Shown: one piece after another, positions 2,265 through 21,786 of the stretch | Position numbering within the stretch: position 1 is the first letter of the stretch | Layout: each line of letters opens with the position of its first letter | Assembly (NCBI GenBank): GCA_944378225.1 | Contig: CALWGE010000015.1 | Coordinates: 1-48,057, forward strand | Source of the DNA: an uncultured Merdimonas sp. | GTDB taxonomy: Bacteria; Bacillota; Clostridia; Lachnospirales; Lachnospiraceae | Direction: 5' to 3' | Length of the DNA: 48,057 nucleotides | Notes under the pieces: model-generated | The model's input: the letters and a program-made list of their open reading frames with translations, nothing else | Databases searched by the model: none | What the model was told of the DNA's origin: nothing | Made by a program: the position numbers and the translations under genes

Positions 2265-2687
2265 TCAGGCTGCTTTATCCTTACAGCTGTCAGTGTGTTC
2301 CTCTACTTCCGGTTTCCAGGTTTTTACACCTTTCAGGAAATAAATGATGTGAAATATCCATACACCCGCAAGTATTATGCACGGTATATAAAGACTTCTC
2401 CAAAGCATCAGGATAAATCCTAAGGACATCAGAACCGTTACCGTTATCATAACCCGGACTTTTGCCGACCAGGTCATTCCCTTCCCCTTTACATAGCTTT
2501 CCAGATTATTGCGGTACAGTTTTGTGTTTGTAAACCACCGATGCAGCCGATCTGAACTTTTCGCAAAGCTGAAGGCTGCCAGCAGAAGAAAAGGAAATGC
2601 GGGCAGCATGGGAAGAACTGCACCCACTGCGCCAAGTACCACGCCAAAACATCCAAGCATCATCCAGAGTATTCTTTTAATTCTCAT
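2265..2687 (-). CDS. YbaN family membrane protein (DUF454)
   Basis: A 140-residue integral membrane protein. Residues ~5-40 hold a GCFGVVLGAVGAVLPMLPAF glycine-rich hairpin followed by an FPFLLLAAFSFAKSS loop, which is the DUF454/YbaN signature. Two further membrane helices follow (about 75-120) and the tail is charged. The function of the family is unknown. It overlaps the upstream ygbA-like gene by 11 bases and is translated in the same operon as the CydDC-like transporter. In other genomes DUF454 genes often sit by respiratory or redox functions, so a role in the same stress response is plausible but unproven. Confidence 0.85.
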   Translation of the reverse strand: MRIKRILWMMLGCFGVVLGAVGAVLPMLPAFPFLLLAAFSFAKSSDRLHRWFTNTKLYRNNLESYVKGKGMTWSAKVRVMITVTVLMSLGFILMLWRSLYIPCIILAGVWIFHIIYFLKGVKTWKPEVEEHTDSCKDKAA

Positions 2688-3024
2688 ATTCCTTCTCCAA
2701 TCTTCTTTTTTCTTTTCGGCTTTCCATTACATGCCTCACAGCCATAACGGGATGGTGCAGCATCATCCTTGGTCCGGAAAACCGCATCACTTCCTTTATT
2801 TTTTCCCGCATGATCGGTTTATAGCAATGGACGCGGCAATTGGAACAGAACGTTTTTGTCTCCATAAAAGGACACCTGTCGCTTCGCCACACCGAATACT
2901 CTGCCAGCTCCCTGCATTCCGGGCACAGTTCCTTTCGCGTGCCATGATGTTTGCAGCAATACAGACGGATCATCAGCAAAACAATTTCTTTCTCCCGCTC
3001 TCTTTTTCTATCTGTTCTGTTCAA
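2677..3024 (-). CDS. YgbA family nitrous oxide-stimulated promoter protein
   Basis: A 115-residue basic protein. Cysteines cluster in four sets: YCCKHHG (about 22-28), LCPECREL (33-40), CPFMETKTFCSNC (51-63) and HCYKP (66-70). The ETKTFCSNCRVHCYKP block is the hallmark of the NO-induced YgbA family (Pfam nitrous oxide-stimulated promoter). In enterobacteria ygbA belongs to the NsrR nitric-oxide regulon, and the many Cys/His suggest metal or Fe-S binding. Here it overlaps the CydC-like gene by 17 bases, so the two are co-expressed. A redox or nitrosative-stress role is inferred from family and context. Confidence 0.82.
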   Translation of the reverse strand: MNRTDRKREREKEIVLLMIRLYCCKHHGTRKELCPECRELAEYSVWRSDRCPFMETKTFCSNCRVHCYKPIMREKIKEVMRFSGPRMMLHHPVMAVRHVMESRKEKRRLEKEYEN

Positions 3025-4702
3025 TCATTCTTCCTCCCTCCATCCGATATACACAGTCTGCAACAGCCATGGTAGATTCCCGATGAGACACCAGAATAAT
3101 CCCTCTCTCCTTTTTCTGCTGCTTCAGAGCCTGAAGAATGATTCCTTCGTTTATACTGTCTATATTGCTTGTTGGTTCATCCAGAAGAATCAGTTCGCTT
3201 CCTCTTAAAAAGGCCCGTGCCAGGCCAATGCGCTGTTTCTCCCCTGCAGACAGATTGTCACCCAGAGCACCAGCCTGGGTCTGATAGCCATCCGGAAGTC
3301 TCATGATCAAATCGTGAACAGCTGCCTGCCTGCAGGCCGTCTCTATTTCTTCCTGCGTTGCATCAGGCCTGGCAATCCGCAGATTCTCTTCGATTGACTC
3401 ATCAAATAAATAAGTGGTCTGGCTGACCATGGTGACATGCTCTGATAAACTGCCGGTATCGATTTCTTCAATCTCTGTGCCATTGTAAAGGATCATTCCG
3501 CTGTTTTTCTTCCAGAACCGGAGAAGCAGCTTAAGCAGCGTTGATTTTCCACAACCAGAGGCTCCCACGATTCCTACAATCTCACCTTTCTTTGCTCTGA
3601 TACAGATATCAGACAGTACTTCTGTTTCTCCATCATACGAAAAGGACAAATGACTGACATTCAAATTATCCAGTGTGTCCAGCATAATACCGTTTTCCAC
3701 AGGCCTGACTGCAGGTTCTTCCCTGAGAAGATCCAGTACCCGATCTCCGGAAGCAAATGTCTGCGTCAGATTTCCCGGCAATGCCGAAATCGCAATCACG
3801 GGACCAAATGAACTGAACACAGCAGCCACGCCCAGAATCATTCTTCCCATTGTAAGATCATGACAGATAACAAGAACTATTCCCACCGCAAGAGCTGCCA
3901 GAATGAAAACAGATACCAGAAGCTCCGTTGCGGCGGACGCTCCGGAAATATCATGCTTCATCTTTTTTGTTTCCGTCAAAAGTTCATTCGAACGGCGATT
4001 TACTTCCTCCTTGCGTTTTTCGCCCCCATTATGAAGAACAATATCTTTAATGCCTTTGATACTATCCAGAAAATAAGCATTGAAAGAAGCGAATTCTGTA
4101 CGGTAACGGACGCCCGATGCTTTCAGACGGATAGAGACACAAAAAGGAACCAGTATTCCCACCGTAACATAACCGATCACTGCTGTGAGCGACAGCCACC
4201 AGCTGGATACCATTCCCACAAACACAGCCGTACACACAGATACCAGAACCGCAATGCAGACGGGTGAAATCGTATGTGCATAAAAAACTTCCAATGTTTC
4301 AATATCCGAAGTGATCATCGCAATAATGGAGCCCTTCTGTTTGGTCTCCAGCTTTGCCGGACAGAGTACGCGCAAAGCCCTGAAAATCTTATCACGCAAT
4401 ACTGCCAGCAGCCGAAACGCAATATAATGATTGCTGTACTGTTCCAGATACCGCAGTATTCCTCTCAGAATTCCGCATCCAATGGCCAGTACCATCAGCG
4501 CCCCATAGGAAAACGAGATATTCTCTCCCAGAGCTTTTGCTATCCCTGCAGCTCCGGAAAGGGTAACTCCCATGGCACACAGAAATCCAGCCGTACCATT
4601 TAAGACAGCAAGCACCATCACAAAAGACAGACTTCCCAGAAGCAGAATAAGATTTCCCATTATTGTGACTCCGTTCCTGCGCGTTTTCTGTTTTTCGCTC
4701 AT
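3008..4702 (-). CDS. CydC-like ABC transporter half (permease fused to ATPase)
   Basis: A 564-residue half-transporter: six membrane helices in about residues 14-310, then an ATPase domain with Walker A GASGCGKST, signature LSAGEKQR and Walker B LILLDEPT. The family comparison is to CydC, whose heterodimer with CydD exports cysteine/glutathione and is also described as a heme transporter for cytochrome bd assembly. The gene overlaps its partner by 4 bases (ATGA), so the two are translationally coupled and almost certainly form a heterodimer. No cydAB genes are visible in the window. The shared operator with the heme-uptake operon makes heme or thiol traffic the first guess. Another exporter-fold substrate remains possible. 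Confidence 0.85.
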   Translation of the reverse strand: MSEKQKTRRNGVTIMGNLILLLGSLSFVMVLAVLNGTAGFLCAMGVTLSGAAGIAKALGENISFSYGALMVLAIGCGILRGILRYLEQYSNHYIAFRLLAVLRDKIFRALRVLCPAKLETKQKGSIIAMITSDIETLEVFYAHTISPVCIAVLVSVCTAVFVGMVSSWWLSLTAVIGYVTVGILVPFCVSIRLKASGVRYRTEFASFNAYFLDSIKGIKDIVLHNGGEKRKEEVNRRSNELLTETKKMKHDISGASAATELLVSVFILAALAVGIVLVICHDLTMGRMILGVAAVFSSFGPVIAISALPGNLTQTFASGDRVLDLLREEPAVRPVENGIMLDTLDNLNVSHLSFSYDGETEVLSDICIRAKKGEIVGIVGASGCGKSTLLKLLLRFWKKNSGMILYNGTEIEEIDTGSLSEHVTMVSQTTYLFDESIEENLRIARPDATQEEIETACRQAAVHDLIMRLPDGYQTQAGALGDNLSAGEKQRIGLARAFLRGSELILLDEPTSNIDSINEGIILQALKQQKKERGIILVSHRESTMAVADCVYRMEGGRMIEQNR

Positions 4703-6438
4703 TCCTGCACCTCCTTATATCCTTCCTCCAGTCTTTTCTGCGCAGTATACAGTTTTGCATATCCTCCCCGACGCTCCATCAATTCATGATGCGTCCCTTG
4801 TTCCTTCACCTTCCCGGATTCCATATAATAAATTCTGTCTGAAGGAACCACATTGGCAAGACGGTGAGAAATTACAATCACAGCTTTTCGCCTGGCCAGC
4901 TTCCGGATTCGCTCCATAATAATGATCTCACTTTCAATATCAATATTGCTGGATGCCTCGTCAAAAATATAGATTTCTTTCTCTGCAGCCAGATTAACTG
5001 CCAGAGCCAGCCGCTGCTTTTGTCCGCCGGAAATATTTACAGCGTCTTCACTGATAACCTTGTCCAGACCTCCGTTCTCACGCACATACTCAGAGAGATT
5101 TACTTCGCTCAGCGCCTGGTAAATCTCTTCTTCTGTTACCCCCGGCTTTGCCAGCTGAAAGTTACTGCGGATGCTTTCGTTAAAAATGTAGGTATTATAA
5201 CTTACCACAGCCAGACGAGAATAATAGGATTCTCTGGACAGTTCCCCAATGTTTATTCCCCCTGCTGTTACCCGTCCCCGGTGAGGCGAAAGGGCTCCGC
5301 TCAGAAGACCTACAATGGTTGACTTGCCGCATCCCGATTCTCCAACGATAGAAGCCATCCCTGTTTTCGGGAAAACCATAGTCACATCCTGAAGCACTTC
5401 CCGCTTTCCATCATAAGAAAAGCTCACCTGCTCCAGACGAAGCTCCAGCTCCGGCGCTTCCCGGTTTCCCCATACCGGGTCAGGCTGTTCCAAAAGGGAG
5501 AGTATCCTGTTTCCTGCGCTGATACCGTTCATCGCTACGTGAAATGCAGAGCCAAAAGCCCGAAGAGGCAGGAAAAATTCTACCGCTACCAGAATCAGGA
5601 ACAGAGCTGCAAAGGGAGACAGTCCGCGGTTTGCAACTGCAGAAAGTGTGAGGGCAATCCCCAGGCCTGCTCCTCCATAGGCCACCAGATCCATAATAGT
5701 AGCGCTGGCCAGCTGCATCACCAGTACCTTCATTGTAATCTTTCGAAACTCCTCACTGGTTTTATTCATGCGTACCTGCCGGGCACCATCGGCTCTGAAA
5801 ATTTTCAGTTCCTTCAATCCCTGGACGCTGTCCAGAAATGCATCCCCCATAGAAGTGTATTTCCCCCAATATCTGGAGAAAATCCGTTTTGCATACCGGG
5901 AAACTGCCACAATAGAAACCGGGATCAAAGGGACACAGCAAAGCAATACTATAGCCACACGCCAGTCTATCCATACCGTAATTCCAAACAGAAACAAAGG
6001 CGCAAGCATTGCATAGAAAAACTGAGGAATATATGCAGAATAATAAAGATCGAGTTGTTCAACCCCCTCTACCGCAACCTGGGTCAGTCCGGCCATGCTC
6101 ATCCCGTCTGTGGAACGCATCCCCAGGCGGACAATCTTGTCATAAACCTTCTCCCGCAGCTCCTTTTTCACTTTTCTCCCCAGCAAATCCTTCAGATCTC
6201 CGGATATACGTGTGGCAGCACAGCGCACTGCAATTCCAAAACCTGCCAGCAGAGCAGGCGCCAAAAATATCACTATTCTCCTACCATTTTCATCAAAACG
6301 AGCCGCACACCACACAATCCGACAGATACAGGCCGTAACAGTAAGATTTGCCAGAAGTCCAAGAAGCATCAGAGCAACAACACCAACAATATATTTTCTG
6401 CTTTTTCCCAGCAAACAAAAAAGATTCTTATCCAGCAT
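4699..6438 (-). CDS. CydD-like ABC transporter half (permease fused to ATPase)
   Basis: A 579-residue partner of the preceding entry and first gene of the operon. Six membrane helices lie in about residues 10-305. The ATPase domain has Walker A GESGCGKST, signature ISGGQKQR and Walker B IYIFDEASSNID. The aspartate-glutamate of Walker B and the switch histidine (VISHRLA) are both present, so this half looks catalytically competent. The leader of about 95 bases carries a strong promoter and two RTTAG-N6-CTAAC sites. Family and context suggest export or insertion of a heme- or thiol-related substrate; the sequence does not fix it. Confidence 0.86.
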   Translation of the reverse strand: MLDKNLFCLLGKSRKYIVGVVALMLLGLLANLTVTACICRIVWCAARFDENGRRIVIFLAPALLAGFGIAVRCAATRISGDLKDLLGRKVKKELREKVYDKIVRLGMRSTDGMSMAGLTQVAVEGVEQLDLYYSAYIPQFFYAMLAPLFLFGITVWIDWRVAIVLLCCVPLIPVSIVAVSRYAKRIFSRYWGKYTSMGDAFLDSVQGLKELKIFRADGARQVRMNKTSEEFRKITMKVLVMQLASATIMDLVAYGGAGLGIALTLSAVANRGLSPFAALFLILVAVEFFLPLRAFGSAFHVAMNGISAGNRILSLLEQPDPVWGNREAPELELRLEQVSFSYDGKREVLQDVTMVFPKTGMASIVGESGCGKSTIVGLLSGALSPHRGRVTAGGINIGELSRESYYSRLAVVSYNTYIFNESIRSNFQLAKPGVTEEEIYQALSEVNLSEYVRENGGLDKVISEDAVNISGGQKQRLALAVNLAAEKEIYIFDEASSNIDIESEIIIMERIRKLARRKAVIVISHRLANVVPSDRIYYMESGKVKEQGTHHELMERRGGYAKLYTAQKRLEEGYKEVQE

Positions 6439-6470: not shown

Positions 6471-6568
6471 GTTAGAAATTTCTAACTTCTAAGAATAAGA
6501 AAAAGCGGAGCTTATTAGCATCCGCTAACTCATTTGTTAAATATACTGTACTTTCATCGCAAAGTCAA
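6471..6568 (-). promoter_or_regulatory. Promoter and two RTTAG-N6-CTAAC operators of the CydDC-like operon
   Basis: On the minus strand TTGACT (6563-6568), 17 bases, then TATATT (6540-6545) make a good sigma-A promoter starting near 6533. The dyad ATTAGCATCCGCTAAC (6514-6529) covers the start site. A perfect dyad, GTTAGAAATTTCTAAC (6471-6486), lies 43 bases further downstream centre to centre. Both are placed to block initiation or early elongation. Confidence 0.75.
6503..6530 (-). terminator. Hairpin with T-run, terminator or leader attenuator
   Basis: On the minus strand AGCGGA-t-GC pairs with GCTCCGCT and is followed by TTTTTCTT. It could end the heme operon that stops at 6603. It also lies just after the start site of the CydDC-like promoter and overlaps the operator at 6514-6529, so it may act on that transcript too. 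Confidence 0.55.
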
Positions 6569-6602: not shown

Positions 6603-7385
6603 TTACACAGTCATCACCATTCTTCTTCCCTCATATTCCATAGTCGATAAATGAATCCCATAAACTTCCTGCAGTGTCTCAGAGGAAATCACTTTTTTCG
6701 GATCGCCCCTGGCAATCAAGGTACCTTCCGGCGACAATGCCACAATCTCATCGCTATAGTAAATCGCCTGATTAATATCATGCAGAACCATCAGAATTGT
6801 AATCCCCAGTTTCTGATTCAGCATCTGCACCAGTTTTAAAATCTGAAGCTGATAACGCACGTCCAGATATGTGGTAGGCTCATCCAGAAGCAGTATTTTT
6901 GTTCCCTGGGCGATCGCCATGGCAATCCATACGCGTTGACGCTGTCCTCCGGACAGCGCGTGTATCTGTTTTTTCCGCAAAGCCAATGTTCCTGTGATTT
7001 TCATTGCCCGTTCAATCATCTGAATATCTTTTTCCTTTGAAACAGAACGCCCCATCTTTGTATAAGGAATACGGCCATAAGACACCAGCTGTTCTACGGT
7101 AATATCTCCCGGAGCCGTGTTGTTCTGATGCACCACAGCTGCTTTTCTAGAAAATTCTTTTAAATCCATTTCCTTTAACGGCTTATTTCCAAGAAAGATC
7201 TCTCCCCTTTCTGGTTCCAGATTTTTAGTCAGCAGCTGAAAGAGCGTCGATTTCCCACAGCCATTGGAGCCCAGAAGAGTAGTAATTTTCCCTTGAGATA
7301 TTTTCAGGCTCAGATTCTGAAGAACCGGCTTCTCTCCGTAAGAGAACATAACATTTTTTAAGGTAAAGCAGGTTTTATTTTCCAT
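6603..7385 (-). CDS. Heme ABC importer ATPase, HtsC/HmuV/FhuC-like
   Basis: A 260-residue ATPase of the FecE/FhuC type. It has Walker A GSNGCGKST near residue 40, signature LSGGQRQR, Walker B ILLLDEPTTYLD and the switch LHDINQA. It energises the permease encoded just upstream, overlapping that gene by 11 bases. I chose the ATG at 7385 (GGGGGA 5 bases before) over the GTG four codons earlier. It is the last gene of the leftward heme-uptake operon. The substrate is taken from context: Shp-like and NEAT proteins are encoded in the same operon. Confidence 0.88.
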   Translation of the reverse strand: MENKTCFTLKNVMFSYGEKPVLQNLSLKISQGKITTLLGSNGCGKSTLFQLLTKNLEPERGEIFLGNKPLKEMDLKEFSRKAAVVHQNNTAPGDITVEQLVSYGRIPYTKMGRSVSKEKDIQMIERAMKITGTLALRKKQIHALSGGQRQRVWIAMAIAQGTKILLLDEPTTYLDVRYQLQILKLVQMLNQKLGITILMVLHDINQAIYYSDEIVALSPEGTLIARGDPKKVISSETLQEVYGIHLSTMEYEGRRMVMTV

Positions 7386-8385
7386 AGATTCCCCCACTCT
7401 TTCGCAAAAGAATTACAAAAACAATTCCTCCTGCAACTGACAGGATAATGCCGGCGCTGATTTCATAAGGATATGCTATCGTGCGCCCCAGAGTGTCTGC
7501 CAGAAGGAAAAGGAAAGCCCCCAGCAGAGCTGAAAACGGCAGCAGCAGCTTATGTTCGCTTCCCACAAAAATCCGTCCGATATGAGGCACCAGCAGACCA
7601 AGAAAGCTCACCGCGCCCACAATGGCAGTACAGCCGCCAACCAGAAAGACTGCTGTCAGACTTACCAGCAGGCGTACCCGATCCACATGAATACCCAGGC
7701 CCCGGATAGTTTTATCCTCCAGTCCCATCAGATTGCACCACCGTGCACAGAACATGGTTAAAACCAGTCCAAGCATCACAAATACACAGAGTATCTTCAC
7801 ATCACTCCAGGTCTTCATTGTAATATTTCCTTCCACAATAGAAGCCACTCCCAAAAGATTCCCGCCGCTCATGGAATTCACACCGCTGGACAATCCTGTA
7901 AACAAGGACTGAATCGCCACACCCATCAGAATAATCCGAAGAGGCGACAAGGTTCCTCTCCATGCCAGAGAATACACCATCCCAAAAGCCAGGAGACCTC
8001 CCAGAAAGCTGAAAACAGGAGCCGCAAGATAGAACTGGGGAAACAGGGCTGCTGCAGCTACTGCCGCAAAGCCTGCACCGCTGGATATGCCCAGAATTCC
8101 AGGGTCTGCCAGAGGATTTTTCAAAACTGCCTGAAACATTACTCCCGCACAGGCAAGCCCTGCACCCGCCATCATGGAAATCAGAATTCTGGGAATGCGC
8201 AGATCATAGACCGATGCCACAGCCTGATCATACTCCACAAACAATCCTCTGAATAACTGAAGGAAACTCAGTTTGATACTTCCCAGGTTTACTGATACAA
8301 AGAACAGTAGAATCAGCGCCGCAATCACCATCAGAAAAGCTGCAAAAACACGTCCTTTCATTCTGCCTTTTTTCAATTGACTCAT
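7375..8385 (-). CDS. Heme ABC importer permease, HtsB/FecCD family
   Basis: A ~336-residue FecCD-type permease with about nine to ten membrane helices. The block NPLADPGILGISSGAGFAAV is the family signature that contacts the ATPase and lipoprotein, and GLLVPHIGR is the second conserved loop. The ATG at 8385 stands 6 bases after AGGAG, while the ATG two codons earlier abuts it, so I prefer 8385. It lies 22 bases after the binding-protein gene. The family moves iron-siderophores, heme or corrinoids; the neighbours point to heme. Confidence 0.9.
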   Translation of the reverse strand: MSQLKKGRMKGRVFAAFLMVIAALILLFFVSVNLGSIKLSFLQLFRGLFVEYDQAVASVYDLRIPRILISMMAGAGLACAGVMFQAVLKNPLADPGILGISSGAGFAAVAAAALFPQFYLAAPVFSFLGGLLAFGMVYSLAWRGTLSPLRIILMGVAIQSLFTGLSSGVNSMSGGNLLGVASIVEGNITMKTWSDVKILCVFVMLGLVLTMFCARWCNLMGLEDKTIRGLGIHVDRVRLLVSLTAVFLVGGCTAIVGAVSFLGLLVPHIGRIFVGSEHKLLLPFSALLGAFLFLLADTLGRTIAYPYEISAGIILSVAGGIVFVILLRKSGGIYGK

Positions 8386-8407
8386 ACTCATCTCCTGTTA
8401 ATTTCTC

Positions 8408-9349
8408 TCATTCACCGCCTGACAGATTCAGACCATCTGCATACAAAATTTCATCCAGCGTTTTTAATGCATTCTGGTAATTAAAGTTGGCACTCATACC
8501 AAATTCCTCATTTGACAAATCGTACACCTGTCCGCACTGCACTGCGCGAAAATGCTTCCAGATATCATTTGTGTCAAATTCCTCCGCAAACATCTGCATA
8601 ACACTTTCCGGCATGGCATGAGCTGTGCGCAGTATCATATCAGGATCTTTCTGAAGCATATCCTCCGTATTGACATTCAAAAACTCATCCTCTGTTCCTC
8701 CATAGACATTTATTCCTCCTGCCATTTCCACCAGACTTCCCACATAGGAATTTTCCGTTGCAACCACATAGGAGCCAGGCAATCCCATCAGTATGAGAAC
8801 TGTGGGCGGTGTGTCATCCTCATGACTTTCCTGATAGTCTGCGTAATAACTCTCAAATTCCCCCACCAGTTTCTGTGCCTCGTCGGTCCTGCCAAACAAT
8901 TCTCCAAGTTCCTGAATGGATTTAAACATTCCCGGTACGCTTTTCAGATTCAGAAATGCATACCGCAGTCCTGCTTCCTCATACTTGGGCTGAAGGTCAT
9001 TTATCAGACTTGCAGGACTCAGAACCCAGTCCGGATCAAGCTGTGAAAGTATTTCCAGATCCGGACTCATAGGGCTGCCTATGGATTCTGCAGTTTCATA
9101 CCGTTCCGGAATATCCGTCAGATCACTGTGCGGCACACCCGCCAAATCCAGATCCAGCTTTTCACAAATCTGCATAACCGCCACGCTGGTAGCCGCAATC
9201 CGCAGCTCTTCTGCAGCCGTTTCCTCTGACTGCCCGCTGCTTCCATCCGTATCTTCTGCGGCCGGATGCTGATTTACGCATCCGGTCACAGAAGACAGCA
9301 GTAACGCACAAAGTATTCCCGCGGCAAATTTTCCGGCTTTACTTCTCAT
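8408..9349 (-). CDS. Heme-binding lipoprotein of the ABC importer, HtsA/IsdE-like
   Basis: A ~313-residue lipoprotein. The signal peptide ends in the lipobox SSVTGC (Cys near residue 24), followed by an acidic Ser-rich linker and a TroA-type two-lobe binding fold (RIAATSVAVMQICEKL at its start; DPDMILRTAHA late). It would accept heme from surface proteins and pass it to HtsB. The start at 9349 has GGGAGGA 8 bases before it and gives a normal signal peptide. A longer frame to 9415 would bury that signal inside the Shp-like gene. The true start overlaps that gene by 11 bases. Met residues fit heme ligation, but the exact ligands were not assigned. Confidence 0.86.
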   Translation of the reverse strand: MRSKAGKFAAGILCALLLSSVTGCVNQHPAAEDTDGSSGQSEETAAEELRIAATSVAVMQICEKLDLDLAGVPHSDLTDIPERYETAESIGSPMSPDLEILSQLDPDWVLSPASLINDLQPKYEEAGLRYAFLNLKSVPGMFKSIQELGELFGRTDEAQKLVGEFESYYADYQESHEDDTPPTVLILMGLPGSYVVATENSYVGSLVEMAGGINVYGGTEDEFLNVNTEDMLQKDPDMILRTAHAMPESVMQMFAEEFDTNDIWKHFRAVQCGQVYDLSNEEFGMSANFNYQNALKTLDEILYADGLNLSGGE

Positions 9350-10274
9350 TCTCCGGTTCCTCCCAATAGTCATCCAGGAGATCCTGTGCGTTAAAATCGT
9401 CTTCTTCTGTTTCATCTTCCACGATTTCTTCTGACAAAATATTTTTCCGCTTCAGCACATGCGCAAGGAACACCTTTCCTGCCAGCAGAACCGCACCTGC
9501 CAGCAGATTTGCGCAAAAGATTACTGTAAAAAGCATCCACCATACGCCGCCGCTTAAATTTAACTGCTGCACGTTATTACTTACCTCCCCTGTTTCAGCA
9601 CTCAATACGGATTCTGCCGTCTCCGTACTTTCTGTTGTTCCCTTATTCCCGGAACCTGTCTGTCCTTCTCCTGTAATCAATCCTGTTGCCTGAGCCAACA
9701 CATCATTTTCAGCACTTCCCGATTCCTTTGCGCCTTCCGCCTCACTGCTGCCCATCTGCACAAATCCTCCCGTATTGCCATCTGTAAAGTCACTCAGAGT
9801 GATATAGAAAATGACACTGCGTCCCATAGCCTCTACATAACACTCTGCCCGGACTATGGTTTCTTCACTTTCAACAGGAAGTCTTAAATCCTTCTGATCT
9901 TCGCCTGACGCTGTTTCCACATAAGAAACTTCTTCCCAGTCACTGTCTCCCGGTTCCTGAACGGACAGAAGAATCTCGGAAAGATTATCTGTCATATGAA
10001 GACGCAGAGACAGATAGTATCCTCCTTCCGGATTTTCCTCCAGCATCGCATTGGTATCCACCACATTTGTAACCATCGACTGCCCCAGCGCCTCACTGGT
10101 TTCTCCGCCGGAGTCTTCAATCGTATCAGTTACCGGATGACGATAAAAACCGGAAGCTTTTGCTGATCGGCAGGGAAGGGTCTCTGCCTGAACGACAATC
10201 GAAAATCCAAAACTCAGCAGCAGGCAGAACAGTATTGCCCTGATCTGTTTGCAGCCTTTTCTTTTCTTTCTCAT
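9339..10274 (-). CDS. Shp-like cell-surface heme-binding protein
   Basis: A 311-residue protein with a signal peptide (1-30), a heme-binding domain of the streptococcal Shp family (about 40-175), a Ser/Gly/Thr-rich linker, a membrane helix near 240-265 and a charged cytosolic tail. Diagnostic blocks are FYRHPVTDTIEDSGGE, LGQSMVTNVV and CYVEAMGRSVIFY. Shp binds heme with two methionines, one in each of the last two blocks. The equivalents here are Met67 and Met150. Streptococcal Shp takes heme from the NEAT protein Shr and hands it to HtsA, and here the gene lies between NEAT genes and an HtsA-like gene. The ATG follows the upstream stop directly, with AGGAG 7 bases before. Confidence 0.9.
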   Translation of the reverse strand: MRKKRKGCKQIRAILFCLLLSFGFSIVVQAETLPCRSAKASGFYRHPVTDTIEDSGGETSEALGQSMVTNVVDTNAMLEENPEGGYYLSLRLHMTDNLSEILLSVQEPGDSDWEEVSYVETASGEDQKDLRLPVESEETIVRAECYVEAMGRSVIFYITLSDFTDGNTGGFVQMGSSEAEGAKESGSAENDVLAQATGLITGEGQTGSGNKGTTESTETAESVLSAETGEVSNNVQQLNLSGGVWWMLFTVIFCANLLAGAVLLAGKVFLAHVLKRKNILSEEIVEDETEEDDFNAQDLLDDYWEEPENEK

Positions 10275-13178
10275 CTAATATCTCCTCTTTCTGTGCCAGT
10301 ATAAAGTGAAAATTCCTGCAGTGGCTGCAGTCGTCAGGAGCAGGATAAAAATTCCCTGTATCCAGGCATCTGTTACCAGCTGATACCCTGCATCCTCAGA
10401 TAAGATACCGCTCTGTTCGTCTTCCTGAGCTGACTGCATATCTGCGTCCTCATTTTGAACCTCGTCTGCTTTCTCTGTTTCCTCCACAGATTCCTCCAGT
10501 GCTTCCTCTGCAGAACCGGTCACAGTTGTCCTGCTGTCAAAATCAAACACAAGGCGCGCATTCACTTCCATCTTCATGGCATTAATCAGCATAGTTACCA
10601 GCATGGGAGAAGGCACTTCACCGCTTACCGTAAATGTGAAGCTGTCATATATCTGACCTCCCAGTTCCACCGCATTCGTTTCTTTCTCAGCTTTTACGCC
10701 ACTGTAGCTCATCCACTCCGGTCCTCCGCCTTCCACTCCGGCAACCGTATGCAGAATATAAACCGTCAGTTCTGAAGTACTTCCATCTACCACCAGCCTG
10801 GCTTTCGGATACATATAATCCGCCATCATACTGGCATCACTGGTCTTTTCTTTTATTGCGGTTACCGGAATCAGATATTCTCCACTGGCCAGACTTCCGC
10901 TTGTAGTTTCCGCCGCAGAGATACCGGTGGCTGCAGCTGCGGTCCCTGAAGAGGCCGCAGACGTGCTCTCATCTATCACCGCAGCATCCCCTGAAGACTG
11001 TGTCTCACCACTTTTCCAATTGCCAAATACCACATAAAATTCCTGCGTACTCTTCATAACCGCATTGACATAAGCCGACATCTTAACTTTGCCGTCTGCG
11101 GAATTTTCAACGGCTGAAGTGGGAATCGTCACCGTAATGGGAGAAGCGTAATAGTTGCCGGCCGTAGGTATAAACTGTTCGTTTGTGGAGAAATAACGGC
11201 TGACTTTATTAACGGTATCAATGCTTCCACTGTAAGTACTGCCATTCACAATAAATTTTATATTTGACAGAGGCGTTCCCTCGCCCGCATAACGCGGTAT
11301 CGGATTAATCACATAAAGTGTCACTTTTGTACTGTTTCCGCTGACTTCCAGATCCGCTCTGGAATAGAATAACGGATTACACATGCTGACAGAATTGATA
11401 TTGTCACTCTTTCTCATGCTTACAGACGCAGTGTATGTGCCATTTTTGTTTTCAGTCGTACCTGCTGTATCTGATCCTGTATCCGACCCTGTATCCGTCA
11501 CCGTTCCGTTTTCTCCGGAACTGCTGTCCTGTATCTGATACAGACTGTATACAGAAAATCTGGATGTATAAAGATATACATAACCATTGGTCCAGTCTGC
11601 ATAATAAGTATTATCTTTATATCCACTCGTCTTTCTGGCAGACAGCGGCTGCATCAGTCCCGCAATCCCGTCATGACACCGGTAAACCGACAGGGTATTC
11701 CCTCTTGACTCATCCAGCGGCAGCCTGATTTCCATGACATAAGAACCTGTATCTGTGATTGCAGTTGTCTCGTTCGTTGTCTCGCACTCCAGGCCAATCT
11801 CATAATAGGCTGCCGTACCACTTGAAGCCCCTGCTGATATCAGAGCGGCAATTGCTGCTATTCCTGCCTGATCCTTTACACTGTCCGCTTCCTTAATATG
11901 GAATTTATAGAAGCCATCCGCAGTGTCCTCAGCATTTACATAATCCTTCAGGCCATTGACTCCCGCATCTAACCCCGGTGTCTTTTCTATGCTGTACTCT
12001 TTTTCTGTTGTATCAGTTTCATTTCCTCCAGTATTTTCCAGATCATCCACATCATCTAATACCAGGAAGAACTGTTTCCACACAGCCATAGGCTTTACAT
12101 AAGCCGTCAGCAGAATGGTTCCGTTCTCACTTTCTTTTACTGCTGGCAAAGGAACGGAAAAACGCACCGGGGCACTTGGATAATCGCCTGCTTCCGGCAC
12201 AAAGACGCCTCCACTTCTGTCCTTCACAAAATATTTGACTGTCTGATTATCATGATCCACTGTCACTGCGGAAGCATAGGAATCATCACTGGGATGCAGT
12301 GTTACCTTGTCGCTCTCACTTCCTGCAGAAGAAGCCAGGCCTTCTGCCGTGATATCAGCCGCGCTTCCCGTCACGTATACGTTTGTAAGAGGCGTTCCGT
12401 ATCTGCTGAAATTCTCTCCCGGAATCGGATCGATAAGGTAAAGCACGATATCTACCATTCCATCCTCCCGCAGAGTCAGGTCTGCATTCTGGTGGAAGAA
12501 AGGCCAGCACATACTCTCCTGCTGTTCCGGATGTATCTGTCCGTTCTGTTCCATCAACAAATGCGCTGCAACAGTTTTCTGTACTGTCTGCTCTCCGGTA
12601 TCCACAGTGCCGGAGCTGTCCGTCTCACCTGTGCCTTCACTTCCATCTGCTGTACTGCCTTCCTCATTAACAAGGCTTGTATAGAACATAATATTTCCTG
12701 TATAGGTGCCTTTTGGAACCCGGGCAATATCCTCCTTGTACAGGGTAAGGCTTCCCTGGGCCGTGCCGCTGGAAGTAAAATACTGAGTCCCAAATGTATT
12801 ATAACCAGTCAGTGTTTTCTCACTATCCTCCGAATTTGCATATGTAATCTCTCGATCAGATGTAATTTTCAACTTAAAATCATTCAAATTTTCCGCTGTA
12901 ATGCCTATCTCGTAATTTTTCGTATAATCACGGGAAGAATCCAGTTCACCCAGTGAAATGGTCTCAGGAAGAGAAATATAGTAGGACGGAACCGCAGACG
13001 GAACAGTAGCTGTAATCTGCATATTCTGTTTATCTTTCTGTCCTGTTTCATCAGACACAGCCTGATTTTCTTCTTTCATTTTCTCCTGCATATCTGGTGA
13101 TGCCGCAGATACAGGAAGAAAATTCTGCAGCGCCAACGCTGCTGCCAGAAACAATGCAACGCATTTTATTCTTTTCAT
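10275..13178 (-). CDS. Membrane-anchored surface protein with three NEAT-like heme domains
   Basis: A ~967-residue protein. The start at 13178 (MKRIKCVALF...) gives a clean signal peptide; a TTG 13 codons earlier would spoil it. In order: a beta-sandwich domain (about 50-165) like that at the C-terminus of the neighbouring NEAT protein; NEAT-like 1 (about 200-385, ESMCWPFFHQNAD); a linker domain (about 395-555); NEAT-like 2 (about 580-735, VSMCNPLFYSRAD); NEAT-like 3 (about 765-890, ASMMADYMYPKAR); an acidic linker; a membrane helix and an RKRRY tail. There is no LPXTG motif. Each NEAT has Met at the strand-8 position where classical domains have the heme Tyr. Likely an Shr-like heme receptor feeding Shp and HtsA. 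Confidence 0.8.
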   Translation of the reverse strand: MKRIKCVALFLAAALALQNFLPVSAASPDMQEKMKEENQAVSDETGQKDKQNMQITATVPSAVPSYYISLPETISLGELDSSRDYTKNYEIGITAENLNDFKLKITSDREITYANSEDSEKTLTGYNTFGTQYFTSSGTAQGSLTLYKEDIARVPKGTYTGNIMFYTSLVNEEGSTADGSEGTGETDSSGTVDTGEQTVQKTVAAHLLMEQNGQIHPEQQESMCWPFFHQNADLTLREDGMVDIVLYLIDPIPGENFSRYGTPLTNVYVTGSAADITAEGLASSAGSESDKVTLHPSDDSYASAVTVDHDNQTVKYFVKDRSGGVFVPEAGDYPSAPVRFSVPLPAVKESENGTILLTAYVKPMAVWKQFFLVLDDVDDLENTGGNETDTTEKEYSIEKTPGLDAGVNGLKDYVNAEDTADGFYKFHIKEADSVKDQAGIAAIAALISAGASSGTAAYYEIGLECETTNETTAITDTGSYVMEIRLPLDESRGNTLSVYRCHDGIAGLMQPLSARKTSGYKDNTYYADWTNGYVYLYTSRFSVYSLYQIQDSSSGENGTVTDTGSDTGSDTAGTTENKNGTYTASVSMRKSDNINSVSMCNPLFYSRADLEVSGNSTKVTLYVINPIPRYAGEGTPLSNIKFIVNGSTYSGSIDTVNKVSRYFSTNEQFIPTAGNYYASPITVTIPTSAVENSADGKVKMSAYVNAVMKSTQEFYVVFGNWKSGETQSSGDAAVIDESTSAASSGTAAAATGISAAETTSGSLASGEYLIPVTAIKEKTSDASMMADYMYPKARLVVDGSTSELTVYILHTVAGVEGGGPEWMSYSGVKAEKETNAVELGGQIYDSFTFTVSGEVPSPMLVTMLINAMKMEVNARLVFDFDSRTTVTGSAEEALEESVEETEKADEVQNEDADMQSAQEDEQSGILSEDAGYQLVTDAWIQGIFILLLTTAATAGIFTLYWHRKRRY

Positions 13179-13283
13179 ATGAAATTCTCTCTTTTTGTGA
13201 AACTCTCGTAATGTCAAAAGTACTTCCCGCCCCTTTTTCAGAGCGGGAAGCTGTAAACTGTATTTTAAACATATGGACAGAAA

Positions 13284-14213
13284 TTACTGTGCAGCGTAAT
13301 AGCTGATGGTGAAATCTGCAGTACCCGTGTAGTTTCCGGCTGCTGCTTTTGCCACATCTGCTGCTGTTACCTTGATATTTCCGTGTAAAGTTGTGGTTTC
13401 AGCAGCCTCCTGTGTACCGAAATCATTGGCAAATGCCAGCGTATTCTCGCCGCTTGTCAGGTTTCCTTTCGCTCCTGTTTCCACTTCCACTTTTCCGCCG
13501 TTCAGATTGGATGCTTCAACCTTTACTTCATATGCCATCGTGTTATCTTCTGATGCGGACAGCGTACCCATTGTAATGCTCTCCGGAATCGTCACCTCAT
13601 AGGATGCTGCCGGCGCTGCCACATCAGCTGTTACCTGGGCAGACTGTGTGGACGTCTCTGTAGGGCCTGCCTGAAGCTCTGTGAGTTTAACAACAAAATT
13701 CTGAGTCGTATTCATCACTACATTCACGTATGCAGAAGTATCAAGACCTGTTTCAAAGGAATCCACCGCATCTCTGGGAAGAGTAACTGTCACAGCCTGT
13801 GTCGGCAGCATATCCCCTGCATTAATTCCGAAAAGAGCACCTGTTGTGTCAAATGTTTTTTCTGCTTTTGTGGTTATATCTGATTCTGCGGTATAGTCCG
13901 TTTCGTTATAAGTTACCACCACATCCTTGATAGTGCCATCCTGTCCCTGATCCGAAAAAGCAGGAACGGGATATGCCACATAAACAGTTACAACTGCCGA
14001 ATCCTCTGTCAGTTTCACATCAGCCTCATGGGCAAAAATGGAATCGCACATACTGTAACTGGACGGATTCGAAGCATTATGAAAATGCACCGTAGCCGTA
14101 TAATCTCCATCCGCAAAATCTGTGGAACCTGCTGCGGATACCGGCATTACACTCATACCTGCAGCCAGTGTCAGCGCCATCGCTGCGGAAGCAGCTCTTT
14201 TTAAAATACTCAT
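13284..14213 (-). CDS. Secreted single-NEAT heme-binding protein
   Basis: A 309-residue exported protein with a signal peptide ending VSAAG near residue 28. One NEAT-like domain covers about 32-182: DGDYTATVHFHNASNPSSYS at the start, YSMCDSIFAHEAD in the lip helix, and SAYVNVVMNTTQNFVVKL as strands 7-8. The usual YxxxY is absent and Met replaces the axial Tyr. Residues ~190-309 form a beta-rich domain (APAASYEVTIPESITMGTL to GNYTGTADFTISYYAAQ) with no anchor, so the protein may be released like a hemophore or be held by its C-terminal domain. The ribosome binding site is AAGGAGGGTG. A role in capturing heme is inferred from family and operon. Confidence 0.8.
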   Translation of the reverse strand: MSILKRAASAAMALTLAAGMSVMPVSAAGSTDFADGDYTATVHFHNASNPSSYSMCDSIFAHEADVKLTEDSAVVTVYVAYPVPAFSDQGQDGTIKDVVVTYNETDYTAESDITTKAEKTFDTTGALFGINAGDMLPTQAVTVTLPRDAVDSFETGLDTSAYVNVVMNTTQNFVVKLTELQAGPTETSTQSAQVTADVAAPAASYEVTIPESITMGTLSASEDNTMAYEVKVEASNLNGGKVEVETGAKGNLTSGENTLAFANDFGTQEAAETTTLHGNIKVTAADVAKAAAGNYTGTADFTISYYAAQ

Positions 14214-14280
14214 AAAAACACCCTCCTTGTTCCTTTGAACATATATTTTTGATCAAACGCATACTGCGTAAAATCCACTC

Positions 14281-14757
14281 TTACTTCACTTCCAGAACAC
14301 AGTTCACAGAAGCCCCGTTACGCGGACTGTAACTCTCGTCCATGGCAAAGGTATCATATTTTATCATCAGATCATACGTACCCGCTTCCAGAGCACGATC
14401 CAGGGTAATTGTGTAAAGGTGATCTCCTGGTTTAATTAATTTAGACTGATAAATCTGCTCCTCTTCCTTGTTCAATATAAAGGTAACCTGAAAATAAACA
14501 TCATTTTCATCAGGATTATACAGATCAATATCCACTTCTGTTTCTCCGGCATTCACGGGAATCGTCGTATATCCAGGGATCTTGATCCCCTTTTCCACGC
14601 TGCCTTCACTGGTGGTCTGAACCTGTCCCTCCTCAAATTCCGGTTTGAAGCTCGTCACTTCTCCTTCCTGTTTCGCAAATTTTGCAGCCACAGCCACAGC
14701 TATTGCTAATCCAATTATAAGCAAAACATATTTCACTCTTTTTTTTACTATTTCCAT
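14281..14757 (-). CDS. Small membrane-anchored beta-sandwich protein of the heme operon
   Basis: A ~158-residue protein with an uncleaved N-terminal membrane helix (about residues 10-28) and an extracellular domain rich in beta strands (PGYTTIPVNAGETEVDIDLY through GASVNCVLEV) that looks like an Ig/FN3 sandwich. I do not recognise the family. It is the first gene of the heme operon, 67 bases before the single-NEAT gene. Similar small anchored proteins accompany surface proteins carrying the beta-sandwich domain seen in both NEAT proteins here, so a part in anchoring or assembling them is a reasonable guess. The ATG at 14757 is preferred over 14766 because of AAGGA spacing. Confidence 0.72.
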   Translation of the reverse strand: MEIVKKRVKYVLLIIGLAIAVAVAAKFAKQEGEVTSFKPEFEEGQVQTTSEGSVEKGIKIPGYTTIPVNAGETEVDIDLYNPDENDVYFQVTFILNKEEEQIYQSKLIKPGDHLYTITLDRALEAGTYDLMIKYDTFAMDESYSPRNGASVNCVLEVK

Positions 14758-14802
14758 ACTCTCCATCCTTAATTAAAGTGTAATACTCACTTCATCCCTT
14801 TC

Positions 14803-14888
14803 ATTAGTTAATTCTAACCTTCGTTCTTTAAAAAGTTAGCTATGACTAACCATCGAAAAGAATATCATCATATTTCCTCTGTAGTCAA
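14803..14888 (-). promoter_or_regulatory. Promoter and two operators of the heme operon
   Basis: On the minus strand TTGACT (14883-14888) is followed after 16-18 bases by a -10 (GATATT or TATTCT, near 14859-14866). Just downstream lie GTTAGCTATGACTAAC (14835-14850) and ATTAGTTAATTCTAAC (14803-14818), 32 bases apart centre to centre. The layout copies that of the CydDC-like operon, with TTGACT, one operator near the start site and a second downstream. Confidence 0.72.
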
Positions 14889-15324: not shown

Positions 15325-15344
15325 AAAAACATAAGTGAATAAAG

Positions 15345-15530
15345 TGCGATTATGGTTTGTTCACCTTGTAAGAAGGTCGGACAATTAAAAGGGAAACAGG
15401 TGAAAATCCTGTGCAGTCTCGCTACTGTATTTGCGGAGCAGTTTTCATCATGCCATTGAGGATTCCTTGAGAAGGCGAAAACTTGTGTTGATGCATAAGC
15501 CAGGAGACCTACCATAAATCCGGTAATGTA
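15345..15530 (+). ncRNA. Cobalamin riboswitch
   Basis: The leader contains the conserved aptamer core GGGAAACAGGTGAAAATCCT (from 15389), then GCAGTCTCGCTACTGTA, and the B12 box GCCAGGAGACCTACC at 15499-15513. These elements have the order and spacing of an adenosylcobalamin-class riboswitch. An intrinsic terminator follows at 15604, so binding of cobalamin probably stops transcription of the downstream CGGC-BtuFCD genes. Outer limits are approximate. Confidence 0.92.
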
Positions 15531-15603
15531 TTCTGCGATGTACAGAACTGTTACAAATGAAGGAAAATATGCCTGCTTTCTGTGGGGATATTTTGATTTG
15601 TAT

Positions 15604-15640
15604 ACGTGTGCTGCTATCATTGTCGGCACACGTTTTTTGT
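15604..15640 (+). terminator. Expression-platform terminator of the cobalamin riboswitch
   Basis: ACGTGTGC (15604-15611) pairs with GCACACGT (15626-15633), followed directly by TTTTTTGTTTTG. It lies between the aptamer and the first coding region, where a transcription-control riboswitch needs it. Confidence 0.82.
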
Positions 15641-15655
15641 TTTGTCATTCTGGAC

Positions 15656-16057
15656 ATGGAAAAGGAGGAAAACATAACGAAGAAAATTGTAATCTTAACT
15701 TGCTTAAAATCTGTGGATTGTTGTACGGGAGCCGCTTGTTTGGCAGCTTTCAATAATAGGACCGGAGCATTCCAGCGATATCAGGCAGAAGAACTTGAAT
15801 TGTCCGCTTTTTTCCACTGCAATGGCTGTAACAGCGTGTTGGAGCAAGACAATGGTTTGCTGGAAAAATTGGATCGGATTTTAAAAATCCACCCAGATGC
15901 AGTCCATTTAGGAGTTTGTACTCTAAAAAAAGAAACTGGGCGGTGTAAAACCATCGAGCAGTTTATCAAGGTTTTTCAAGATAATGGCATTGCGGTTATC
16001 GATGGTACACATAGTAGCCCACGGCTTCCCAATATCGGAATGCCGATAGCTAAATAG
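15656..16057 (+). CDS. CGGC domain-containing (putative metal-binding) protein
   Basis: About 127-133 residues. The core matches the CGGC domain family: KKIVILTCLKSVDCCTGAAC at the N-terminus, FFHCNGCNSVLEQ (here CNGC, not CGGC), then HPDAVHLGVCTLKKETGRCK. The conserved Cys/His set suggests metal binding; the reaction is unknown. It is the first gene under the cobalamin riboswitch, followed 28 bases later by a BtuF-like lipoprotein, so a role in cobalt or corrinoid handling is inferred. The start is odd. ATG at 15656 has no ribosome binding site. A perfect AAGGAGG at 15662-15668 instead serves ATA (15674) or ACG (15677), giving (M)TKKIVILTC. Confidence 0.75.
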   Translation: MEKEENITKKIVILTCLKSVDCCTGAACLAAFNNRTGAFQRYQAEELELSAFFHCNGCNSVLEQDNGLLEKLDRILKIHPDAVHLGVCTLKKETGRCKTIEQFIKVFQDNGIAVIDGTHSSPRLPNIGMPIAK

Positions 16058-16085
16058 CAATTATATAAAGGAGAAACAAAAAGTC

Positions 16086-17123
16086 ATGAAGAAAAAAATT
16101 TTAGCGTTGATGATGGCTGCCATTATGGCAGTTGGGTTAGCTGGATGCGGGAATGATACCGGTACCAGCAGCGAGACTTCCGGTGAAACAAGCGTAGTTG
16201 ACAGCACCAGCAATACCAATTCTGGTGAAGAAAATGAGGGTTCGAATTATTACCCTGTAACGGTGGAAGTTTACAATACGTCCCAGGAATTAGTTCCGTA
16301 CACCTTTGAAAAATGCCCGGAAAAAACTCTGGTATACGGTCGGAACAATGTGGAAATTATGTTGGCCCTGGGACTCGGTGATAAAATCATGATGATTGCC
16401 GACTGCGGCAGCGTCCTTCCAGAATACCAAGAAGAATTTGAAAAAATTCCGCAGTTGAAAGACCATCAGGACGTAGGCTATTTTGTCAGGGAATACGCCA
16501 TGAGTTTAGAACCGGACATGGTAATTGGCTGGCGTTCTCTGTTTGAAATGGATGACCGGATGGGAGATGTGGAATTCTGGCATGAACGAAATATAGGTAC
16601 CTATACCAGCATCAACAGTGTCTTAAAGGATAACCAGTCTTTGGAAAATGAATACGCAGATATTCGGAATATCGGAAAAATCTATAACAAGGTAGACGAA
16701 GCGGAAGCAATTATTTCAGCTATTGAGGCAGACGTTGCAAAAGGCAAAGAAGCAGCTGCCGGAAATGACCCGCAGCGTATTCTGATTGCAGAAAAATGGG
16801 AGGGTGAATATGATATTTACCATTCTAAAACTGCTGCCGGAGATATTGCAACACAGCTTGGCGCAGAAGTTTTAGGCGAAAAAGGCTGGACGGATGAGCA
16901 GATTGTAGAATCCAATCCAGAAGTAATTTTTGCTGTGCATGTCAGCTCTGTTTCCGATGAAGAAGCTATTGCTTTATATACGGAAAATCCGGCCTTGGCC
17001 AGTGTTGATGCAGTGAAAAATGGTCGTGTATACCCTGTGGTCTACAGTTTGGCCTACACTCCAGGAGTGCGCACTGGCGAAACTGTAAAATTCTTTTTAC
17101 AGACACTGTACGGCATTGAATAA
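16086..17123 (+). CDS. btuF: Corrinoid-type ABC importer binding lipoprotein, BtuF-like
   Basis: A 345-residue lipoprotein with a signal peptide and lipobox VGLAGC (Cys near 21), a Ser/Thr/Glu-rich linker to about 55, then a helical-backbone two-lobe binding fold (TLVYGRNNVEIMLALGLGDK; SLEPDMVIGWRSLF; SNPEVIFAVHVSS). Family members bind siderophores, heme or corrinoids. The upstream cobalamin riboswitch makes a corrinoid the likely ligand. The ribosome binding site is AAGGAG. A terminator follows the stop at once, so this gene is probably transcribed more than the permease genes. The symbol is by function and context only. Confidence 0.82.
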   Translation: MKKKILALMMAAIMAVGLAGCGNDTGTSSETSGETSVVDSTSNTNSGEENEGSNYYPVTVEVYNTSQELVPYTFEKCPEKTLVYGRNNVEIMLALGLGDKIMMIADCGSVLPEYQEEFEKIPQLKDHQDVGYFVREYAMSLEPDMVIGWRSLFEMDDRMGDVEFWHERNIGTYTSINSVLKDNQSLENEYADIRNIGKIYNKVDEAEAIISAIEADVAKGKEAAAGNDPQRILIAEKWEGEYDIYHSKTAAGDIATQLGAEVLGEKGWTDEQIVESNPEVIFAVHVSSVSDEEAIALYTENPALASVDAVKNGRVYPVVYSLAYTPGVRTGETVKFFLQTLYGIE

Positions 17124-17129
17124 CCAGGA

Positions 17130-17178
17130 AAAGACACGCCAGCAGTATCCACTCCTCCCGCTGGCGTGTCTTTTTTTA
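17130..17178 (+). terminator. Strong intrinsic terminator inside the btuF-btuC operon
   Basis: AAAGACACGCCAGC (17130-17143) pairs with GCTGGCGTGTCTTT (17160-17173), a 14 bp stem ending in TTTTTTT. It separates the lipoprotein gene from the permease gene. No second promoter is obvious in the ~20 bases left, so read-through probably supplies the permease and ATPase. Confidence 0.85.
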
Positions 17179-17198
17179 TTGAAACGGAGAACATATAT

Positions 17199-18275
17199 AT
17201 GCAGAAGATTGATTTAAAAGACGGGATTTTTAAAGGTTTGCCCATTTATATTTGCGCATTGATTCTGCTGTCCATTGGTCTAATTTTGTCGATTTTATAT
17301 GCGGTTACCGTTGGTTCCGCTGATCTGTCTGTAGAAGAAGTCTACCGGGTAATTCTGTATGAAATTTTTCACATTGGAAATCCCGAAAAATGGGGCAGCG
17401 GCGCTACGCACGACATTGTATGGCTGATTCGTTTACCTCGGATTATTCTGGCTGTTGGTGTTGGGGCCGGGTTGTCGGTGGTAGGTGTTGTAATGCAGGC
17501 TATCGTGCAGAATCCCCTTGCTGATCCATACATTCTAGGTATTTCTTCCGGCGCCTCTCTTGGAGCAACGCTGACAATCCTGCTCGGAGCAAGCCTGTTC
17601 GGAGCTGCTCAAGTCGGCCTCGGTGCTTTTATTGGAGCCATGACGGTGGCCTTTTTAGTAATTTTAATTTCAAACTTTGGCGGCCGAACCACTTCGGTGA
17701 AGCTGGTTTTGTCCGGTGTGGCCTTAAGTTCCCTATGTTCCGCTTTTTCAAATTTTATTGTCTACATGGCAGATGACCCCGATCGATTCCGTACTGTCAG
17801 CTTCTGGCTGATGGGCAGCCTGGCGGGAGCTGAATGGATTAGTAACGCTTGGATTTTAAGCATCGTTCTCATTTCTGTTGTGTTCTTTATAACACAGTCC
17901 CGCATCTTAAATCTGATGCTTTTAGGTGATGACACCGCCGTTACTCTTGGTACAAATCTGCAACGGTATCGGAGGGTCTATTTGATCGCAGCATCCCTGA
18001 TGGTTGGTTTTATTGTATATGCTTCCGGCGTAATCGGCTTTGTTGGGTTGATTATCCCTCATTTTGTCAGAGGCCTTTTTGGTGTGGATCACAAAAAACT
18101 TCTGCCATTGTCGGTGTTGGTAGGCAGCGTCTTTCTGATTTGGGCTGATGTAGTCGCACGAACCATTCTGCCCAATACAGAACTGCCGATTGGAATTTTG
18201 ATTTCCGTGGTAGGCGCACCTATTTTCATTCTGCTTTTATTTAAAAAGACCTATAGTTTTGGGGGGAAGTCATGA
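17199..18275 (+). CDS. btuC: Corrinoid-type ABC importer permease, BtuC/FecCD family
   Basis: A ~358-residue permease with nine to ten membrane helices, the family block NPLADPYILGISSGASLGAT and the loop GLIIPHFVRGLFG. The ATG at 17199 with GGAGA 8 bases before is preferred; the longer frame from 17166 starts inside the terminator hairpin. It overlaps the ATPase gene by 4 bases. The substrate is assigned from the cobalamin riboswitch. It is a separate system from the heme permease at 7375-8385. Confidence 0.87.
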   Translation: MQKIDLKDGIFKGLPIYICALILLSIGLILSILYAVTVGSADLSVEEVYRVILYEIFHIGNPEKWGSGATHDIVWLIRLPRIILAVGVGAGLSVVGVVMQAIVQNPLADPYILGISSGASLGATLTILLGASLFGAAQVGLGAFIGAMTVAFLVILISNFGGRTTSVKLVLSGVALSSLCSAFSNFIVYMADDPDRFRTVSFWLMGSLAGAEWISNAWILSIVLISVVFFITQSRILNLMLLGDDTAVTLGTNLQRYRRVYLIAASLMVGFIVYASGVIGFVGLIIPHFVRGLFGVDHKKLLPLSVLVGSVFLIWADVVARTILPNTELPIGILISVVGAPIFILLLFKKTYSFGGKS

Positions 18276-21772: not shown

Positions 21773-21786
21773 AGGAGGAAGAAATC

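Follow-up and report, generated by a model that had tools for sequence, protein, structure and literature searches.

Organization of the locus

The window analysed here, a stretch of 48,057 nucleotides from an uncultured Merdimonas sp. (GenBank assembly GCA_944378225.1, contig CALWGE010000015.1), a gut bacterium related to Blautia, carries a leftward gene cluster. Its open reading frames (ORFs) occupy the minus strand between 14766 and 3008, overlapping or separated by short gaps, and a DUF454 gene comes after them. In order the cluster encodes a 161-residue membrane protein, two NEAT proteins (a secreted one with a single NEAT domain, then one with three), a Shp-type protein, an IsdE/HtsA-FecCD-ATPase importer, two CydDC-like ATP-binding cassette (ABC) proteins and a DUF454 protein (Table 1). 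The locus is a real, conserved heme importer of the type of the cht locus of Clostridium perfringens, and the relay itself is of a known kind. It is probably an iron-type heme-import locus of this clostridial kind that keeps its outer receptors in place through a pilin-like module.

An initial annotation had recognized the two NEAT proteins, the Shp-family protein and the HtsA/B/C-like importer, and domain profiles bear out that observation. The genes that it placed at 6603..14757 stand, but the cluster runs past these limits to the CydDC-like and DUF454 genes, the latter being counted in because a related locus (L086) has a DUF454 gene between the ATPase and CydD-like genes. An alternative start is possible for the 161-residue protein at 14757, the 980-residue triple-NEAT protein has a TTG start in the ORF list with an ATG at 13178 being likelier, and the Shp and IsdE genes overlap.

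Table 1. Features of the heme locus, in window coordinates.
Feature	Position	Strand	Remarks
Exact palindrome GTTAG-N6-CTAAC	14835..14850	.	Upstream of operon; proposed operator
Palindrome copy, one mismatch	14803..14818	.	Second copy upstream of operon
161-residue protein	14281..14766	-	N-terminal transmembrane (TM) helix, conserved flexible stretch (~residues 33-60), immunoglobulin (Ig)-like domain
309-residue secreted protein	13284..14213	-	Signal peptide, NEAT-fold domain, pilin-like module
NEAT-fold domain of 309-residue protein	13671..14120	-	Residues 32-181; candidate ligands M55, M167
Pilin-like module of 309-residue protein	13287..13637	-	Residues 193-309
980-residue protein	10275..13217	-	Signal peptide, pilin-like module, three NEAT blocks, C-terminal TM tail
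Pilin-like module of 980-residue protein	12672..13028	-	
NEAT block A of 980-residue protein	12048..12569	-	~Residues 217-390
NEAT block B of 980-residue protein	11013..11453	-	~Residues 589-735
NEAT block C of 980-residue protein	10533..10895	-	~Residues 775-895; best Pfam NEAT match
Shp-type heme protein	9339..10274	-	C-terminal TM segment; predicted ligands M67, M150
IsdE/HtsA-type heme-binding lipoprotein	8408..9415	-	Likely start 9349; M116, H266
FecCD permease	7375..8391	-	Profile match
Importer ATPase	6603..7397	-	ABC ATPase profile match
Exact palindrome	6471..6486	.	Before CydD-like gene; one-mismatch copy at 6514-6529
CydD-like permease/ATPase fusion	4699..6438	-	Position of chtC2
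CydC-like permease/ATPase fusion	3008..4702	-	Position of chtC3
DUF454 protein	2265..2687	-	

A probable heme relay of predicted bis-methionine domains

The Shp-type protein matches the HemeBinding_Shp profile (PF11545) with 148 bits against a cut-off of 26.4, and aligns with crystalline Shp (2q7a) at E 4.9e-18. Both ligand methionines, which the initial annotation had read from the sequence, are present: M67 and M150 are in register with those of 2q7a and invariant in 19/19 alignment rows. The lipoprotein scores 378 bits with the IsdE equivalog profile (cut-off 298.65), and its M116, kept in 19/19 rows, and H266, kept in the 18/18 ungapped rows, align with a methionine and a histidine of IsdE (2q8p) that we take to be the IsdE heme ligands. 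The whole 980-residue protein exceeds the Pfam NEAT cut-off (44 versus 32.8 bits), so that both profile models named as checks in the initial annotation, NEAT and HemeBinding_Shp, return matches above threshold, and its three NEAT blocks and C-terminal membrane segment agree with the anchored triple-NEAT protein described there. The 309-residue protein gave no Pfam NEAT match at E 1; its N-terminal domain has the NEAT fold, as had been expected of it, and by profile its M55 and M167 align with M67 and M150 of Shp. The NEAT domains of the window have Met at both of these places.

The YxxxY heme tyrosines were not found in the NEAT domains of the window, which have a methionine at the matching place. 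Their absence marks a subgroup and not the family, since PMC4143258 reports YxxxY to be missing from all of its clostridial-group NEAT domains. All five surface heme domains are predicted to hold heme through two methionines rather than through the NEAT tyrosine, which by sequence would extend the bis-methionine NEAT type beyond streptococci.

The sequence gives good support to a relay that carries heme from the surface to the cytosol and includes a Shp step. The 309-residue and triple-NEAT proteins would capture heme outside the cell and pass it to the membrane-anchored Shp-type protein, from which it would move to the IsdE/HtsA-type lipoprotein and the FecCD/ATPase importer. We infer heme binding and the direction of transfer, together with the docking, strand donation and iron repression discussed below. 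A search for a HutW-type heme-breakdown enzyme gave three matches, all under the cut-off, with the control detected in 11/14 genomes. Elsewhere in the genome a 300-residue frame (L004, G000:C6:52395-52640) has a very weak NEAT match (E 0.16).

Comparison with known heme importers

The cht locus is the closest described system and a better match than the streptococcal Shr-Shp-Hts relay to which the initial annotation had likened the cluster. According to PMC5026354, its order is chtD-chtE-srt-chtA-chtB-chtC1-chtC2-chtC3, including a Shp-like bis-Met NEAT protein and two terminal permease/ATPase fusions. The window has the same order of NEAT receptor, Shp-like single-NEAT protein with methionine ligands, substrate-binding protein, permease, ATPase and two permease/ATPase fusions. 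The proposal of a relay in a clostridial genome is therefore supported, but a clostridial locus with such a Shp step had already been described. The two loci differ in that here an extra module-bearing NEAT protein and its 161-residue partner come first, pilin-like modules stand where cht has an LPQTG-type anchor, and no sortase was found among the cluster ORFs whereas cht has a sortase gene. Moreover, the window has palindromes where a Fur box is reported for cht (no Fur-box search was made here), and its CydD-like gene has palindromes of its own.

The two fusions fall below the NCBIfam cut-offs for CydD and CydC (365 versus 435 and 306 versus 329 bits, respectively), and the 94%-complete genome yielded no cytochrome bd subunit I; a true CydDC serving cytochrome bd is unlikely.

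Shr carries hemoglobin-binding and leucine-rich parts besides NEAT. In the 980-residue protein NEAT was the sole domain match at E 1, and orthology with Shr was rejected. The surface-to-cytosol order with Shp survives from the Shr-Shp-Hts comparison, but the window has no Shr-type protein and its receptor is split over two module-bearing proteins. What it does have in common with Shr-Shp-HtsABC of Streptococcus pyogenes (PMC12796733) is the two-methionine Shp, the HtsA/IsdE-type lipoprotein and bis-Met NEAT domains.

A pilin-like module and its proposed membrane partner

The two NEAT proteins have a second domain in common, the C-terminal half of the 309-residue protein being homologous to the module of the 980-residue protein. 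By fold, and more faintly by profile, it is similar to Csu/SCPU pilin domains: the module has a pilin-type beta-sandwich fold, the top four matches in a profile comparison were Csu pilins, and the SCPU profile matched 3/25 related module proteins (best E 1.4e-4). Unlike Csu/SCPU chaperone-usher systems, there is no outer membrane here and no usher was recognised, and the 309-residue protein has no SCPU match at E 1. A single-sequence search of the PDB with the module gave nothing meaningful. Nor is it a WxL module, there being no tryptophan in residues 193-309 and no WxL match at E 1.

The 161-residue protein is the proposed membrane partner of the module. Its TM helix agrees with the small anchored protein of the initial annotation, which took it for an addition at the head of the operon. 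It belongs to a family that occurs in 58/397 genomes of the window's family (Lachnospiraceae), often directly before a secreted protein with the module. The family profile gave scattered matches in the PDB (sodium channel beta-4, E 0.0012; FliL, E 0.0039), and among 23 members Pfam returned weak, scattered matches, none common to more than 2/23, while FliL models of NCBIfam reached 6/23 (best E 4.6e-4). Profile comparison revealed no relation between the module and this family. The analysis names a testable pair whose membrane member belongs to no Pfam or NCBIfam family over the cut-off.

The 309-residue protein had been described as released. It is probably retained on the cell and not freely secreted, because its module is homologous to that of the membrane-anchored 980-residue protein. 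We propose that the module would dock on the membrane-tethered Ig-like protein, most likely through the conserved flexible stretch (~residues 33-60), in the manner of TapA with TasA and WxLIP with WxL, and that the module of the 980-residue protein would join that protein to the same assembly. This offers a possible answer to the question of how heme receptors lacking a sorting motif are held on the surface.

An alternative, which we regard as unlikely, is that the 309-residue protein is secreted freely as a hemophore of the IsdX1 kind, with a C-terminal domain that acts as a spacer or binds the cell wall or a host ligand, and that the 161-residue protein has another envelope function. This is at odds with the occurrence of the same module in a membrane-anchored protein. 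The 161-residue family also adjoins proteins that carry the module but no NEAT domain, an indication that the module works together with this partner.

The proposed attachment through a tethered partner is comparable to two described systems. In WxL/WxLIP (PMC10599100) small and large secreted proteins likewise have a common module together with a membrane-anchored Ig-like partner, and a WxLIP strand is proposed to insert into the WxL module; the window differs in its module, without tryptophan or WxL match, and in a partner with an N-terminal TM helix and one Ig-like domain instead of two. In TapA/TasA (PMC10151520), a Gram-positive pair, a secreted beta-sandwich protein is completed, as proposed or shown, by an Ig-fold partner with a flexible N-terminal stretch; TasA is filamentous, and the partner here has a TM helix.

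The module proteins might instead polymerise by mutual strand exchange, with the 161-residue protein as chaperone or base and NEAT domains displayed at the end of a thin pilus or over its length. The pilin-like fold, the Csu pilins as best profile matches, and a two-domain architecture that pairs a receptor domain with a pilin domain, as tip adhesins do, favour such a filament. So does TasA, whose strands are exchanged along the filament (PMC10151520). Filament formation is nevertheless quite improbable, as this genome has only two module copies and the annotated neighbours include no recognisable usher or assembly gene.

Co-occurrence of partner and module genes

The closer members of the 161-residue family usually stand directly before a secreted pilin-module gene, also in other families of the phylum. 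A first module profile, built from three heme-locus modules and run on 20 loci around the 161-residue family, found matches at E <1e-3 in nearby ORFs of seven loci, three of them heme-type; in this set the products of several further downstream genes are secreted and have a last strand that looks similar by eye. A second profile, trained on the 20-locus set, was tested on 34 further loci with 899 ORFs and identified 11 module ORFs in 10 loci, all on the strand of the partner and 9 of them no more than 70 bp away. No module ORF turned up in the remaining 24 test loci, where the next gene often encodes another kind of secreted protein.

When the 397 genomes were searched, 54 module places were found in 34 genomes, 45 of them no more than 3 kb from a partner place on the same strand. 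Both genes occurred in 30 genomes, the module only in 4, the partner only in 28 and neither in 335 (Fisher p 9e-25), a count that is partly circular as most profile rows were taken from partner neighbours. A module lay nearby for 33/96 partner places and for 31 of the 40 best. The cleanest test of pairing is that of genomes outside the family. The partner family was found in 9/398 phylum genomes, own genome included, and among the 8 from other families a module ORF follows 3-58 bp downstream in five, the partner gene is interrupted in two, and a different secreted protein is encoded in one.

The pair may be a two-gene unit of general use for surface attachment, on a par with WxL/WxLIP or TapA/TasA, that was recruited here for NEAT receptors. 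Both the pilin-like attachment of receptors and the partner family seem to be undescribed within the literature searched: the titles and abstract beginnings of open-licence PMC papers mention no NEAT-pilin fusion, no such two-gene pair and no fusion of NEAT with FMN_bind. Distant relatives of the 161-residue protein (L112, L116-L119, L121-L125 and others) precede other secreted proteins, often of 330-390 residues and without a detectable module, which are perhaps a second class of partner.

Conservation of the locus and an FMN_bind subtype

A pattern scan of one genome per species (84,980 species) yielded 25 loci, named for example as Blautia, Mediterraneibacter, Gemmiger, Fournierella and Falcatimonas. 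The full order partner-module-module-Shp-IsdE-FecCD-ATPase is present in 14/25. Contig ends truncate three loci (L082, L090, L098). In L093 the FecCD protein is short and an ATPase match is missing, L100 is without the second module and L099 is unlike the rest. No Shp or importer follows the receptors in L083 (near a contig end), L085, L091, L094 and L096. In L085 (9291-16693) the partner-NEAT-module genes are followed by an OmpR-type regulator, a histidine kinase and an ABC ATPase and not by Shp and importer; L091 and L094 have ORFs of similar size, L085 being the one scanned.

None of the 15 other listed genomes of the same genus has a Shp match. In a tree of IsdE the window falls among Oscillospiraceae rows, together with L078 and Falcatimonas. 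This group of 7 rows (86/90, not starred) is separate from one of 15 rows that is mainly Lachnospiraceae (97/96). Horizontal spread of the heme locus is possible.

The multi-NEAT protein includes a fused FMN_bind domain, beside the NEAT blocks and the pilin-like module, in 17/23 rows (the window plus 22 of the 25 loci), namely in L079-L083 and L085-L096. A second search agrees. The six receptors without it (window, L076, L078, L084, L097, L100) all fall in the window's group of the IsdE tree. The domain suggests a surface electron-transfer role, and the fusion is possibly a surface heme reductase, so that surface heme reduction in anaerobes becomes directly testable in these relatives. In a term search the word NEAT did not occur in the main texts of two flavinylation papers (PMC8238504 and PMC11334425).

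More tentatively, Bacillota might possess a widespread and as yet undescribed two-gene display unit, a one-membrane counterpart of the chaperone-pilin pair, in which a membrane-tethered Ig-like protein completes or holds pilin-like modules of secreted proteins by strand donation. Gut Lachnospiraceae and Oscillospiraceae would have plugged bis-methionine NEAT receptors into it, and in one subtype a covalent-flavin FMN_bind domain would reduce surface heme before import.

Palindromes and possible regulation

The genome holds five exact GTTAG-N6-CTAAC sites, of which three are in the window (14835, 6471 and 936) and two lie ~1 kb before a flavodoxin gene; a one-mismatch form is found 47 bp before feoB, beside a DtxR-family gene. 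With one mismatch allowed there are 13 sites in the genome versus 38 for a reversed control, and the case for the palindrome therefore rests on position and not on number. The palindrome was picked post hoc, after reading the upstream DNA, and the looser TTAG-N4-9-CTAA was used in the comparison of loci. This occurs upstream of the partner gene in 20/23 loci (missing in L079, L086 and L088), which are related and so not independent, as against means of 1.6 for shuffles and 1.1 for random stretches (largest 6 in 500 each).

At 15336-19033 the plus strand carries, in divergent orientation to the heme cluster, a cobalamin riboswitch followed by a second binding-protein-dependent importer. This neighbourhood could indicate that the heme locus imports another ligand, a corrinoid or a siderophore. 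We consider that most improbable, as the riboswitch is on the opposite strand before the other importer, the IsdE equivalog score is over the cut-off, the Shp ligands are intact and the operon palindrome recurs, in its one-mismatch form, before feoB.

Other genes in the window

The palindrome at 936 lies before a gene for an ABC transporter membrane protein that runs out of the window, next to a TetR-type regulator at 975-1598 (region 3-1598). A 1679-residue protein of unknown function with DUF5724, DUF4132 and DUF7737 is encoded at 21766-26805.
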